Source: Bacteroidota bacterium (GTDB lineage: Bacteria; Bacteroidota; Bacteroidia; Bacteroidales; Prolixibacteraceae). Taken from it: a stretch of DNA of 64,000 bases. The translations under genes and the position numbers were made by a program. The stretch lies in NCBI GenBank assembly GCA_030698405.1, contig JAUYMU010000094.1, positions 1 to 64,000 of the forward strand, given 5' to 3'. Under the pieces are notes generated by a model that searched no databases, had not been told where the DNA came from, and worked only from the letters and a program-made list of their open reading frames with translations. Shown in pieces: positions 1,908 through 64,000 of this stretch (the first letter of the stretch is position 1; each line of letters opens with the position of its first letter).

Positions 1908-4900
1908 TTGGGCACGGTATTAATCCTGCTCATTTGCTTCTGGTTCATTCTTCAAAGTCCGGGAGTACAGACTTTTCTTATCGGTAAACTGACTGAACAC
2001 TTTTCAAATAAATACAACACAAGTGTCACTATCAAAGGTGTTTCCATTTCATTTTTCAACAAGGTTGTTCTTGAAGAAGTTTTAATCCTGGATCAAAAAA
2101 ACGATTCTCTTTTGTACGTTCAGGAATTGGTGGCAAGCATCAATTCATTCAGCATAAAAAAACGTACTGCCGGAATAGATAAACTTGAGTTGAACAATAC
2201 TTTTCTAACCGTCGTTTCCGACACCACCGGAACATCAAATTACCAGTTTCTGGTCGATTTATTTGCAAAAAAAGATGCTCCAAAAACTACAGACAGCCTT
2301 CAGTTCGATTTTAACATGAAACGGTTCGAGTTCAACAATGCATCGGTAAAATATACTTATCACGACAGTATTGGGCAACATCTGATTGATTTGAGGAACA
2401 TTACGCTGGGAGTTTCCGATTTGGAACTTCAGTATGAAAAAATAGCTTTTTTGATTACGCAATTTCAGTTAAACGACCACAAGGATTTTTATCTCGAAGA
2501 TTTTACCGCCCGCTTTATCGCTACGTCCGATTCAATCAACCTGATGAACCTTCATGCCCTGACATCCAATTCAGAAATAACCGAGCTGAATGTGATGATT
2601 GAGAAAAAGAAACGCGGGACCGAATTTGACCTGAAAAAGATGAAGGTCAATATGGATCTGAGAAAATCGAGGATCAGCCTCAAAGACCTCGGTATGATGG
2701 TTCCTTTCCTGAAAGGCATGGAAGAAGTCATTGACGTTTCGGGCCAGGTTTCAGGAACACTGGCCGATTTAAAAGGAAAAAACATACAGATGAGTATGCG
2801 AAACAATACGCAATTGGCTTTCGATTTATATTTGAATGGATTGCCCGACATTGAAAATACATACATGCACATCGACCTGAAACAATCATTTGCCGATTTC
2901 AATGATTTGAGCAAGGTTAAACTTCCAGATAATTTTCCACTTCAGCAACTGACGGTTCCGGCTCAACTTCTTCAGGCAGGAGTTATTGAATACAAGGGAA
3001 ATTTTACTGGTTTTCTAAGCGATTTTGTTGCCTTCGGAACTTTCAGATCGAAATGGGGAGTTTTGACAACTGACTTGTCGTTTGTTCCATCTGACGGTGA
3101 AAAACTGAAAATAAACGGAAAATTACGAACTGTCAATTTTAAAATCGGGAAATTATTCAAAACGGATTTATTGGACGGGATTACGTTTAACGGCGATATT
3201 AAAGGAATACTCAATCAGCAGACACACAATTTTTCGGCCAAGGTTTTAGGTAAGATCGACAGCGTTTTTGTGTATAATTATCAGTACAAAAATATCCAGT
3301 TGAACGGTGATGTTCTGAACAAAAAATTTGATGGTTATTTGCTGGTTGACGATCCGAATTTGAAATTAAGGTTCGATGGTAAATTTGACCTGAATGTTCC
3401 GGTTCCGGTGTTTAACTTTGAAATGCAGTTAGCGAAAGCCGATCTTCGGGCGTTGAAATTTGACCGAAAGTTCAAACAATCGGAGGTTTCTTTTGCCCTG
3501 AATGCAAATTTTACAGGTAGTAATATTGATAATATCGATGGATTAATACATTTTACCAAAGGTACTTACCGAAATGAAAACGATTCTGTTTCATTCGATA
3601 ACTTTGATTTGAAAACATATTATCAAAACGGACCTGTATTGCAGGTACGTTCTGATTTTTTGGATGCAGACATTTACGGGAAGTATGAATTTCACAACCT
3701 CCACCATTCTGTAAAGAAAATTATTGCCAAATATCTTCCATCGGCTGGTCTTACATTTCCGGTTGAAGGAACGCAGAATAATTTTGATTTTAAGTTTGTC
3801 CTGAAGGATGTCAATCGTTTTACACGGGTGTTAATGCCTGATTTAATGATGGAACCGGCAACAATTGACGGGACTATTAATTCAGGAAAAAATACGTTGA
3901 CAATAAATGCCCTGTTTCCGGAGATTCAATACCAAACTGCGGTCTTCCATAAATTTGCTTTCAATTTGAATGGGAATTCGAAACTGGACATCCACAATAA
4001 AATTGAAGAATTAAGTCTTGGTGAGAAGTTCAAAGTTTACAATCTTTCACTGATTTCGGAGGCTGAAAATAATGTGATGGATTCGAAACTGATCTGGAAT
4101 AATTTCGACGCAGTTTCGTACAGCGGATCGCTGAATACAAGCGCAAAGTTTTTCAAACAAATAAATAGTCCGCATATTGAGATTTCGGTTAAACCGACCC
4201 GTATTTACCTTGCCGATACTTTGTGGCAGCTCAATTCGGCATTGATAACAGTTGACTCTACGCTGATAAAAGTGAACAAACTTAAATTATCGAACAAAGG
4301 CCAATCCATTACGGTCGATGGTTCAATTGATAAAAATCAGGATAATAAACTCAATCTTATTTTTGATCAGATTGATCTGAATGTGCTGAATCAATTCGTT
4401 GCTGGCGATCTGGCCCTTAAAGGAAATCTTAATGGAAGTCTTTCATTTTTCGATATTTATGAGCGTCCGTTGTTTTTGTCTGATTTGAAAATAAGCGGAT
4501 TAAGCCTGCTTCGGCATTCGCTGGGAACTGCATCGGTTCAGAGCCGTCTCGATCGGTCGGCCGGTGAAATTAATGCAGAAGTGTTGTTGACTTCGAATGA
4601 TAAAAACACCTTGCTTGCTTACGGAATTTACAATCCGGCCAAAGACAGTCTCTCCGTAAATGCGAATTTCGATCAGTTTTCATTGTTGATTCTTCAGCCG
4701 CTGCTGGGAATCAGTTTTAGCAACTTTCATGGTGAAGCTACCGGCAAAGTACGTGTTTACGGTAAACTGAATCATATTCAGCACAAAGGCGCTTTGTTTG
4801 CGTCCAATGCCGGCCTGATGCTTTCTGAATTACAGGTCAACTACACCATGAACGACTCCGTAAAATTTGAAGGTGATAAGATTATATTTCCGCAGATGAG

Positions 4901-58916: not shown

Positions 58917-61589
58917 ATGAAACTTGCTATTTTTCTTTTCAGTCTATTTCTTCCAATGATGCTTCATGCGCAAGTATCAAAAAAAATTGAAGTTGCTGCG
59001 GGCACTTTAAAAACAACATTGACAGGCAGTGAGCTTAACACAATTACAAACCTCACAATTGAAGGCAAAATTGATGCCCGGGATTTTAAAACTATGCGCG
59101 ATTATATGCCATTGTTGGAAGTAATTGATCTAACCGGTGTAATTGTGGAGGCATATACAGGAACCGAAGGTACATCCTGGATATCAACATATAAGGCAGA
59201 TGTATTTCCTGAATATGCTTTTTGGAGCGATATCACAGGCAGTAAAGCAAGTTTAATTTCTGTATCAATTCCATCTTCAGTCAAAACAATTGGTGAAGGA
59301 GCTTTTTCAGGATGCCGTGGTTTGACTTCTTTAAACATTCCATCGTCGGTTACTACAATCGGACAAAGTGCTTTTTCTCAATGCAGCGGATTGGTATTTG
59401 TTACAGTCCCTTCGTCGGTGAAAACTATTAAATCCGGAGCTTTTGAGGGCTGTAGTGGTCTTACTTCCATTACGATTCCATCATTTGTTACTTTAATTGA
59501 ATACGCTACTTTTTGGGACTGTAACGGATTGAAATCTGTTGCAATTCCGCCATCTGTTACTTCAATCGGCAGTCATGCTTTTTTTAGATGCAGCAGATTA
59601 AATTCGATAATACTTCCTTCATCTGTAAGCTCAATCGGGGAGCATGCTTTTGATGGTTGTACCGGATTAGCCTCAATTCATTCACACATTTCAATTCCGG
59701 CAAATTTAGTCTCAGCATTCAGTGTTTTTAGCGAAGTAAATAAAAACACCTGTAAATTATATGTGCCTTCCGGATCTTCCGCTCTATATACTAAAGCTAT
59801 CGGATGGAAAGATTTTTCGAATATAATAGAAATGCCTGATATAAAACTTTCGGCAACAACCGCAATTGTTGCTGCGTCTAAGGCAAGCACGGTGATCCTG
59901 GAAATTCGATCTGATGTTGCATGGGTTGCCAGTTCAGACCAATCATGGATTACCATAAGTCCGGCATCCGGTAGCGGAAACCAAACACTTACCTTTACAG
60001 CCGAAGGAAATCCATTGCGTTCTGCCAGAAATGCTTTGGTATCAATTTCGGCAACGGGCGGATATTTACAAACTATTTTTATAATGCAGGAAGCTTTGAA
60101 CGAAGCGCCTCTGGCCAATGCCGGATCCGATCAATCTGTTGACGAAGGATCAACTGTTACGCTTGATGGTTCGGCTTCTTCCGACCCGGAAAATGATGCC
60201 CTGACTTATCATTGGACTGCCCCAGCCGGAATTGCACTTGACCCGGTAACCGCTGCAAAACCGACTTTTATTGTTCCTGAAGTCATTGCTGATACTGAAT
60301 TTGTTTTCTCGCTGGTGGTAAACGATGGAAATACTGATTCTTCTGCTGATGAGGTTGTTGTGAAAGTAAAGAAAATATACCCTAAAGTAATTCAGAATTT
60401 GGACTTAAGCATGGGCTGGAATATTATCTCTTTTAATGTTGTTCCTGATGATCTTAACCTGCAGGACAATATTCAGAGTTTGATTGATGCTGGAAGACTA
60501 AAAAAAGTAATGGATATAAATGATAAAACCATTGAATATGTGGAATCTGTTGGCGGATGGAACAACAACATTGGCAATTTGACAGTGACCAATGGTTATA
60601 AAGTAAATGTTGCCGCTAAATCTACTTTATCTGTTGAGGGAGTTCCCGTTCAAATACCGCTGGATATTACTTTGAAGGCTGGTTGGAATATTATCGCCTA
60701 CCCTTATACGAAAATACAGAGTGCAAAATTGCTTATTCAATCGCTAATCGACGACGGCAAACTTATAAAAGTCATGGACGAATCCGGTAAAAGCATTGAA
60801 GACTATGGTTTACACGGCGGCTGGAAAAATACGATTGGAAACTTTGTTCCGGGCAAAGGGTACAAAGTTAATGTTCTTGAAAACTGTACTTTAACCATCC
60901 CGGCGAACGTAACTAAAACTGCCGTTTTTATTGCGGATCAAATAACATCAGAATATTTTAAACCTGTTTTTATTGGCAATGGAACCGATCATATGAACAT
61001 TAACCTTGTGAACCTGAAAGCTTCGGGATTAACTGCCGGAGACGAGATCGGCATATTCGATGGACCATATTGCGTAGGATCTGCAACAGTTGGAACAGAG
61101 CACATGATGGACGGAAGTATTGGCATTCCGGCATCATGTAACGACGATCTGGAAGAAACGATCAACGGATTCACTCCCGGTCATCCTGTTACGATTAAAC
61201 TATACCGGGGAGGACAAATTTACCTGCTGAATGCAATGAAAGTTAGCGGTGCGCATTGGTTTGAGAAGAATGGTTCAGTGTTCGCTGAGGTAAATACAAA
61301 CGACATGACTGCACTTCAAATTGTTGAAGATTCAACGCGGTTTAGATGTTACCCAAATCCGTTTTCAGAAGAAATTACCATTGAAATTCATAACCCAAAA
61401 CGAACGAATTTAAAAGTTGAAATCTATAATCTTACCGGACAACTGATTAAAAATCTGTCAATTGAAAAAACTGACAAATACGTTGAAATAATCTGGAATG
61501 GCACCAACGAATTGGGTAAGAAAGTTACTCCGGGCGTCTATTTCTGTAAGATAGAAAATCAGTTTATACAAATTCTATTTGCCGGATAA
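58917..61589 (+). CDS. Secreted BspA-type LRR/BACON/PKD protein with T9SS sorting domain
   Basis: The 890-residue modular surface protein has a signal peptide (MKLAIFLFSLFLPMMLHAQ). Six BspA-type leucine-rich repeats of ~23 residues follow (about 113-255, with consensus IPSSVTSIGxxAFxxCxGLxS), then a BACON-like domain (about 308-393, WVASSDQSWITISPASGSGNQ) and a PKD-like domain (about 396-485). Two homologous ~80-residue modules (about 494-575 and 582-661, each with GWNII and a GGW-N-IGN motif), an IFDGPYCVG-type domain (about 680-805) and a type A T9SS sorting domain (about 808-890, YPNPF through GVYFCKIEN) complete it. Such proteins bind carbohydrates or host/biofilm ligands, but the ligand is unknown. 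It ends 74 bases before the CRISPR array. Confidence 0.87.
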   Translation: MKLAIFLFSLFLPMMLHAQVSKKIEVAAGTLKTTLTGSELNTITNLTIEGKIDARDFKTMRDYMPLLEVIDLTGVIVEAYTGTEGTSWISTYKADVFPEYAFWSDITGSKASLISVSIPSSVKTIGEGAFSGCRGLTSLNIPSSVTTIGQSAFSQCSGLVFVTVPSSVKTIKSGAFEGCSGLTSITIPSFVTLIEYATFWDCNGLKSVAIPPSVTSIGSHAFFRCSRLNSIILPSSVSSIGEHAFDGCTGLASIHSHISIPANLVSAFSVFSEVNKNTCKLYVPSGSSALYTKAIGWKDFSNIIEMPDIKLSATTAIVAASKASTVILEIRSDVAWVASSDQSWITISPASGSGNQTLTFTAEGNPLRSARNALVSISATGGYLQTIFIMQEALNEAPLANAGSDQSVDEGSTVTLDGSASSDPENDALTYHWTAPAGIALDPVTAAKPTFIVPEVIADTEFVFSLVVNDGNTDSSADEVVVKVKKIYPKVIQNLDLSMGWNIISFNVVPDDLNLQDNIQSLIDAGRLKKVMDINDKTIEYVESVGGWNNNIGNLTVTNGYKVNVAAKSTLSVEGVPVQIPLDITLKAGWNIIAYPYTKIQSAKLLIQSLIDDGKLIKVMDESGKSIEDYGLHGGWKNTIGNFVPGKGYKVNVLENCTLTIPANVTKTAVFIADQITSEYFKPVFIGNGTDHMNINLVNLKASGLTAGDEIGIFDGPYCVGSATVGTEHMMDGSIGIPASCNDDLEETINGFTPGHPVTIKLYRGGQIYLLNAMKVSGAHWFEKNGSVFAEVNTNDMTALQIVEDSTRFRCYPNPFSEEITIEIHNPKRTNLKVEIYNLTGQLIKNLSIEKTDKYVEIIWNGTNELGKKVTPGVYFCKIENQFIQILFAG

Positions 61590-61663
61590 TTGCTGATCAA
61601 AATATTCAATTGTTTTTAACAGACCTCTACGAAGCTCAATGTTCTTAATAGCGATCGTTTCTT

Positions 61664-64000
61664 GTTGTGATTTGCTTTCAAATTGTATCTTTAACGAGTT
61701 CTATCACATCTGACACATTCCGAGCTGATAGGTCCCGCGAGTTGTGATTTGCTTTCAAATTGTATCTTTAACGAGTTCTATCACATCCGAAGGCAAGGCA
61801 GGGAGTTGCATTTGGAGGTTGTGATTTGCTTTCAAATTGTATCTTTAACGAGTTCTATCACATCGGAAACTTTTTAATGTACATCTGATTCTCCGTTGTG
61901 ATTTGCTTTCAAATTGTATCTTTAACGAGTTCTATCACATCCAGACTTGGAATTGTACAAACAAAGTTTATGTTGTGATTTGCTTTCAAATTGTATCTTT
62001 AACGAGTTCTATCACATCACAAAGTTTGCACGATTTACGAAGGCGCGAGTTGTGATTTGCTTTCAAATTGTATCTTTAACGAGTTCTATCACATCGCCAA
62101 GCGCTTAGACTGTCGCATGGTGGTAGTTGTGATTTGCTTTCAAATTGTATCTTTAACGAGTTCTATCACATCGAGACAATATGCGAATATAGCATTAATC
62201 GTGTTGTGATTTGCTTTCAAATTGTATCTTTAACGAGTTCTATCACATCAATTAGAATATCAATATCATTTATATCTCTGTTGTGATTTGCTTTCAAATT
62301 GTATCTTTAACGAGTTCTATCACATCATCCGACCTGAGAACTAATTCCGCTATGAGGTTGTGATTTGCTTTCAAATTGTATCTTTAACGAGTTCTATCAC
62401 ATCATGCCTATGGCTAAAGGGATTACCGAAACTGTTGTGATTTGCTTTCAAATTGTATCTTTAACGAGTTCTATCACATCCGCTCGATTTTTTTGTAGGC
62501 GTCTGTTGTTGTTGTGATTTGCTTTCAAATTGTATCTTTAACGAGTTCTATCACATCTGTAAGAATATCCGCATAAACTATTAGTAGTTGTGATTTGCTT
62601 TCAAATTGTATCTTTAACGAGTTCTATCACATCAAAAATTCAAATGTTCAAAACAGTACATCAGTTGTGATTTGCTTTCAAATTGTATCTTTAACGAGTT
62701 CTATCACATCCCGGAGGTAATCCTGTTCCTGCTTCTGACCGTTGTGATTTGCTTTCAAATTGTATCTTTAACGAGTTCTATCACATCAAAACAGGCACCA
62801 ACCCTATCGAAGAATGGGTTGTGATTTGCTTTCAAATTGTATCTTTAACGAGTTCTATCACATCAGGATGATGCGTGCGCTCTGGCGCATTTCTGTTGTG
62901 ATTTGCTTTCAAATTGTATCTTTAACGAGTTCTATCACATCATTATAATGTTTCCAACCACGCCCAACACGTTGTGATTTGCTTTCAAATTGTATCTTTA
63001 ACGAGTTCTATCACATCAACTTCTGAAAACCATTCAGCAGTACTACGGTTGTGATTTGCTTTCAAATTGTATCTTTAACGAGTTCTATCACATCTACATC
63101 AAAGCCTTTCAGTTTGTTGGCTTCGTTGTGATTTGCTTTCAAATTGTATCTTTAACGAGTTCTATCACATCCATTTCAGCATGTTCATTGTATTGATTGA
63201 TGTTGTGATTTGCTTTCAAATTGTATCTTTAACGAGTTCTATCACATCATATCGGGATGCTCAGTAACTTCGAACACTGTTGTGATTTGCTTTCAAATTG
63301 TATCTTTAACGAGTTCTATCACATCTGCTCTTTTGCAGTTGTGTGCAACTAATAAGTTGTGATTTGCTTTCAAATTGTATCTTTAACGAGTTCTATCACA
63401 TCCAAAAGGTGTACAGTTCAGACTATTTTAGTGTTGTGATTTGCTTTCAAATTGTATCTTTAACGAGTTCTATCACATCAACGAAGTTGTGATCAAGGTT
63501 GCCAAGACTGTTGTGATTTGCTTTCAAATTGTATCTTTAACGAGTTCTATCACATCATTGATCACATAACGGTAAAGGCTACTGACGTTGTGATTTGCTT
63601 TCAAATTGTATCTTTAACGAGTTCTATCACATCTTATTGAAATTGTAAACGGCGCGGAGTTGCGTTGTGATTTGCTTTCAAATTGTATCTTTAACGAGTT
63701 CTATCACATCCGCTTTCAGGTATAGTGTTCGACCATACACGTTGTGATTTGCTTTCAAATTGTATCTTTAACGAGTTCTATCACATCAAATGGAGTGCCG
63801 GTATTGAGTGCAATACCGTTGTGATTTGCTTTCAAATTGTATCTTTAACGAGTTCTATCACATCTTTCCTGAATCCTTCAAAGTGATTCCAAGCGTTGTG
63901 ATTTGCTTTCAAATTGTATCTTTAACGAGTTCTATCACATCCAATCGGAATGACGAACAGCATTCAGCACTGTTGTGATTTGCTTTCAAATTGTATCTTT
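61664..64000 (+). CRISPR. CRISPR array: 30 complete 47-base repeats plus a partial one, cut by the window edge
   Basis: The 47-base repeat begins GTTGTGATTTGCTTTC and ends GAGTTCTATCACATC. It starts at 61664 and recurs every 77 bases (76 twice). I count 30 full copies and a partial 31st at 63972, with 30 spacers: 28 of 30 bases and two of 29 (62558-62586, 62942-62970). All copies I read are identical, so there is no degenerate end in view. The repeat ends can pair (TGTGAT with ATCACA). The 47-base length, ~30-base spacers and GTTGTG start match what I recall of Bacteroidota type II-C (Cas9) arrays. By analogy with other type II repeats the crRNA would read on the plus strand. No cas gene or matching anti-repeat (tracrRNA) was seen in the window. 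Confidence 0.98.

Follow-up and report, generated by a model that had tools for sequence, protein, structure and literature searches.

The array and its repeat

How are the spacers of a type II-C CRISPR array expressed when the array lies antisense to cas9 and its leader is at its 3' end? The question is raised by an array at positions 61664..64000 (plus strand) of the 64,000-nucleotide stretch of Prolixibacteraceae DNA analyzed here (the window). Its repeat, GTTGTGATTTGCTTTCAAATTGTATCTTTAACGAGTTCTATCACATC, is 47 nt long, with the first copy at 61664-61710, mostly 30-nt spacers, and a period of 76-78. Thirty repeats lie whole within the window, whose end cuts the array 29 nt into the 31st; the contig runs on to 65344 and carries the array to 65019, so that the full array has 44 identical repeat copies, the last of them at 64973-65019. 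In every 47-base repeat, the initial annotation had noted a TTG at positions 2-4, followed after 18 bases by TATCTTTA at positions 23-30, and had read the pair as a Bacteroidota-type promoter module with -33 and -7 elements. The arrangement itself is exact in all copies, up to the end of the array. The TTG of repeat 1 is at 61665..61667 and the -7-like box at 61686..61693 (both plus strand), the box recurring in each repeat at repeat start + 22 with one mismatch, at its last base, to TAnnTTTG. Bacteroidota sigma-ABfr promoters combine this -7 box with a -33 TTTG/TTG element. Inside the window this match proves little, because 44 identical copies amount to a single observation, and about 12% of shuffled repeats (14.2 of 118) contain a box with at most one mismatch at positions 21-30. 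Taken alone, it is hardly more than chance, and it becomes significant only through comparison with relatives.

The cas locus and the tracrRNA gene

The cas genes are found on contig C74, which is not the contig of the array, in the order cas9, a transposase-like ORF (L011:9139-9993; of the REP-associated type by eye), cas1, and cas2; csn2 and cas4 are absent. Cas9 was identified by PF18541, and Cas1 and Cas2 were assigned solely by reading the ORFs. The system is a type II-C CRISPR-Cas system, and the nearest named relatives of its Cas9 are from Bacteroidales and Bacteroidota, among them Paludibacter. Because of a frameshift at L011:5624-5745, cas9 is read as two overlapping ORFs, one of 404 aa and the other of 1171 aa, the open frame in a genus relative (G795) being 1520 aa; the split is either an assembly error or a real loss.

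The cas2-side end of C74 and the 3' flank of the array match adjoining stretches of one genus-relative locus (L289), which would put the focal array on the downstream side of cas2, in antisense orientation. At the 3' end of cas2, C74 and the array contig (C102) both diverge from the relatives (L011:11217-11352 and L010:4208-4345), which suggests that DNA has been inserted between the array leader and cas2. The tracrRNA gene is upstream of cas9 on the opposite strand (L011 minus strand). By alignment, its anti-repeat pairs with repeat positions 2-23 (61665..61686, plus strand, in repeat 1, and identical in every repeat), and its own box, TATCTTTG, begins 12 nt before the anti-repeat. A tracrRNA-body-like stretch (TTTAAATGTTTTTACAACGGAATAA) occurs twice upstream of cas9 (L011:4335-4370 and 4440-4465), perhaps as a partial duplication.

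A -7 box conserved in Bacteroidota type II-C repeats

Arrays were taken from Cas9-bearing genomes of the order and the phylum and from 80 named relatives. The collected repeats split into a class of 44-49 nt and a class of 36 nt, the former comprising 118 Bacteroidota type II-C arrays, including a few genomes sampled twice. An exact TAnnTTTG is present at positions 21-30 in 70 of these 118 long repeats, compared with 0.9 in shuffled repeats, although shared ancestry means that the counts are not independent. After clustering at 85% identity, the exact box is found in 37 of 69 (0.54 expected), and at 75% in 13 of 31 (0.2 expected). A single antisense match was seen among the first 65 long repeats. 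The exact box is present in 32 of the 41 long repeats of the order sample, most boxes in the class sample are one base off at the end (TATTTTTA, TATCTTCG, TATCTTAG), and the few long repeats of other classes keep CTTTG while often losing TA (TTTCTTTG, GTTCTTTG). Repeats of the 36-nt class have the exact box in 2 of 26 cases. In several of these shorter Bacteroidota repeats (L082, L170, L103, L108), GATCTTTG lies just a few bases short of the repeat end, where it might mark a start closer to the spacer.

Information content is concentrated in three blocks of the long repeats, the first being the 5' part that pairs, the second the box, and the third a terminal ACA; the tails between these blocks are close to random. 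The box is not fixed in place but ranges over positions 22-28, with variation at nn, and the tail that follows it has almost no information. As a rule, pairing with the anti-repeat extends from repeat position 2 to about 22-25, leaving the box outside the duplex or at its edge; because anti-repeats generally stop where the box starts, tracrRNA pairing does not maintain the box. Furthermore, TAnnTTTG also precedes tracrRNA genes, being exact in 21 of 32 Bacteroidales-order loci as well as in the focal genome. There it lies mostly 8-14 nt, and most often 11-12 nt, before the anti-repeat.

Fibrobacter has Cas9 relatives (57-59% identical) and shares the repeat 5' half and the tracrRNA. The box region in its repeats reads TACTTTAA or TAGTTTTA, and two Fibrobacter tracrRNA promoters read TTGAYY-N17-TATATT. 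By motif count, the 5' half of the repeat is present several times on the same strand in about 16 of 168 Fibrobacterota genomes; within this set, a correctly spaced exact TAnnTTTG is recurrent in one genome and occurs once in another. This scarcity, set against the 70 of 118, gives Fisher p values of 6e-5 to 8e-4, which are optimistic because the genomes are related. Two Fibrobacter type II-C repeats (L186, L191) have a small inverted repeat in place of the box (CTACTTTAAGTAG, CTAGTTTTACTAG).

Thus, one part of the proposed promoter module stands, namely a -7 box on the crRNA-sense strand that is conserved in the phylum beyond the requirements of tracrRNA pairing and is mostly absent from Fibrobacterota repeats. 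Promotion from each repeat by a Bacteroidota-type -7 box appears highly probable for the 44-49-nt repeat class.

Array direction and the source of transcription

The collected arrays, like the focal one, are antisense to cas9. Their 3'-most repeat is essentially perfect in 114 of 114 arrays (mean of 0.009 mismatches), while the 5'-most repeat has a mean of 4.5 mismatches and is degenerate in 46 of 94, which indirectly places the entry of new spacers at the 3' end of the transcript. Experiments in Riemerella, where spacers enter at the leader/cas2-side end (PMC6008519), and in Flavobacterium columnare (PMC8092290) point to the same end. The 3' flank of the array is conserved in the genus, with up to 94% identity. 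Between the array and cas2, about 40 nt from the array, is a near-perfect 25-bp palindromic terminator (L010:4060-4115, corresponding to C102 ~65059-65114), which folds with its flanks at -48.8 kcal/mol (z of -7.5) and is conserved after the last repeat in the genus. It closes what would be convergent transcription of the array and cas2. Transcription from the leader would yield an antisense repeat that is unable to pair with the tracrRNA, and a leader promoter would therefore give the wrong strand. With transcription running toward the leader and cas2, such a promoter would be of no use to the crRNA strand, so that every spacer would need one of its own.

An external promoter upstream of the arrays is not supported. 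TAnnTTTG within 150 nt upstream is scarcely enriched (14 of 94 arrays, against 8.5 in shuffled sequences), and the 5' flanks of related arrays look dissimilar. The leader-distal 5' flank of the focal array (61590..61663, plus strand) follows a co-directional ORF ending at 61589; neither TAnnTTTG nor a terminator-like hairpin was found in it.

The TTG and the terminal repeats

The reading of TTG at positions 2-4 as the -33 element is not supported in the form proposed. This TTG falls inside the tracrRNA-paired GTTGT block, so that its conservation is confounded with pairing. It also stays unchanged where the box is missing, most 36-nt repeats and the Fibrobacter repeats without the box keeping it. 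Moreover, 30 clipped terminal repeats have lost it and mostly retain the -7 box; a replacement TTG (gap of 17-23) is present in 6 of them compared with 4.8 expected, which is not above chance. When intergenic DNA of the focal genome was searched for the -33/-7 spacing, the TTG enrichment was too weak to settle the gap. The proposed -33 element at 61665..61667 is thus without independent support, and the comparisons do not support TTG as a required -33 element.

Degenerate 5'-most repeats are altered almost solely in the tracrRNA-pairing half, with changes at 60 of 111 TTG positions, 2 of 222 -7 positions, and 13 of 555 positions of the 3' tail. The clip points are mostly upstream of the box, which is kept in 32 cases and broken or lacking in 13. 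However, retention of the box does not exceed that of the 3' tail (2/222 versus 13/555; p of 0.25), and because the tail is as well kept, the clipping pattern does not single out the box. Taken as a specific test of box retention, clipping is consistent with it but does not settle the matter. For the oldest type II-C repeat, mutations within its first 15 nt have been published, and the authors of that study suggest for type II-C extra repeats that the repeat must keep its promoter (PMC12080349); the clipping observed here agrees with this.

Alternative explanations

The last base of the focal box is A. A count over 288 upstream regions of the focal genome shows enrichment of TAnnTTTG (85 sense and 54 antisense, against 24 shuffled) and none of TAnnTTTA (46 sense and 47 antisense, against 59 shuffled). 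This lack of enrichment would fit a reading that we consider unlikely, namely that the box is ancestral and a genuine promoter element but is weak or inactive in the genus, with crRNAs arising by read-through from the co-directional upstream gene and RNase III processing. The ORF ending at 61589 stops 74 nt before the array, and the absence of a detectable hairpin in between favors the same reading. However, TATCTTTA is fixed in the genus, where four repeat variants keep it while the bases after it change, and A as the last base is the commonest one-mismatch form of the box (9 of 20), other lineages included. Both observations speak against decay. The dissimilar 5' flanks of related arrays, with their barely enriched upstream boxes, likewise argue against read-through. 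Per-repeat promotion is the reading we prefer for the focal array, where it is probable.

It is also conceivable, if rather improbable, that the box is kept for another function of the repeat, such as Cas1-Cas2 recognition or a protein contact of the pre-crRNA, and that its -7 likeness is incidental. Such a function would account for the repeats of other classes that keep CTTTG and lose TA, and for the clipped terminal repeats, which keep the entire 3' part and not the box alone. It accounts less well for a box that fits the sigma consensus of the phylum, shifts in position, is variable at nn, is found again before tracrRNA genes, and is mostly absent from Fibrobacterota repeats that share the 5' half. 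Transcription from a cas2-side leader promoter, which has been proposed for Riemerella, has in its favor the AT-rich leader between cas2 and the array, which a generic predictor scored highly (PMC5006608). We give this explanation very little credence, since its product would be the strand that cannot pair with the tracrRNA and would have to pass the genus terminator close to the array; spacer entry at the leader end and F. columnare reads that run toward the leader also argue against it.

Proposed mechanism

According to the preferred reading, the 47-nt repeat would consist of a tracrRNA-pairing 5' part, a -7 box that follows directly and reads TAnnTTTG in most of the order's members examined and TATCTTTA in the focal array, and a 3' tail whose sequence is constrained only at its ACAAC/ACATC-like terminus. 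At each box, the housekeeping sigma factor would initiate transcription about 4-6 nt further downstream, around repeat positions 35-37 (61698..61700, plus strand, in repeat 1), a start predicted from the distance between box and anti-repeat in tracrRNA genes. The off-consensus focal box is presumed to be active in this way. The primary transcript would begin with about 11-13 nt of repeat, continue through a single 30-nt spacer, and include the repeat after it, in which the tracrRNA would pair and RNase III would cut. We regard this mechanism as a whole, a type II-C array with three-part repeats and a box-driven start in each of them, as quite probable.

If true, it would explain how widespread Cas9 arrays of gut, oral, and environmental Bacteroidota are expressed despite spacer entry at the transcript 3' end, and it would correct the published statement that such repeats hold no promoter. 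It predicts crRNA 5' ends unlike those of Campylobacter, and it implies that a construct moving such repeats into another bacterium has to be given an extra promoter. A segment displaced from the rest of the array would be expected to remain expressed; the suggestion of the initial annotation that orphan or relocated segments would be functional is plausible.

Comparison with known systems

A promoter in each repeat was established for Campylobacter jejuni type II-C by dRNA-seq (Dugar 2013, PMC3656092) and is described for Neisseria in papers that cite Zhang 2013. The likeness to these systems includes the three-gene type II-C locus, a promoter element in every repeat, seen in the present case as a sequence element, and, as predicted here, a crRNA made from the following spacer and transcription toward the leader. 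In C. jejuni, an extended -10 is at the extreme 3' end of the repeat, and transcription starts at spacer position five, whereas the focal type has a Bacteroidota -7 box in the middle of a 46-48-nt repeat. Given this placement, the predicted start would be about 11-13 nt before the spacer and would leave a repeat-derived 5' extension.

Within the same phylum, a per-repeat promoter was proposed for F. columnare and F. psychrophilum type II-C arrays, only the TTG (-33) being named and no -7 box (PMC8092290, PMC10309648). Transcription there also runs toward the variable end, with some RNA-seq support in F. columnare (eight within-array reads toward the leader; PMC8092290). However, the Flavobacterium-kind 36-nt repeats in our collection are mostly without TAnnTTTG, and the TTG named for them is the element that the present comparison does not support.

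The 47-nt type II-C arrays of Riemerella anatipestifer and Prevotella intermedia match the focal one in repeat family and locus layout (PMC5006608, PMC5608340). The Riemerella paper reported a leader promoter and found none in the repeats, and the Prevotella paper found tracrRNA promoters not strongly predictable; both used the BDGP predictor, a tool not designed with Bacteroidota promoters in mind. Read in reverse, the P. intermedia repeat as published (PMC5608340) has TATCTTTG at positions 24-31, and the R. columbina repeat has it at 27-34. No earlier report of this -7 box in 47-nt repeats was found in a literature search confined largely to openly available papers.

A broader idea, for and against which we see about equal chances, is that Bacteroidota type II-C repeats have been rebuilt around the sigma factor of the phylum, with a -7 box placed just outside the duplex in a 46-48-nt repeat, crRNAs starting within the repeat and bearing a repeat-derived 5' extension, and a box that is rewritten upon a move to a phylum with another promoter code. 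Relative to Campylobacter and Neisseria, the system described here would be a lineage-specific version of the known repeat-embedded promotion, with a different, group-specific signal.
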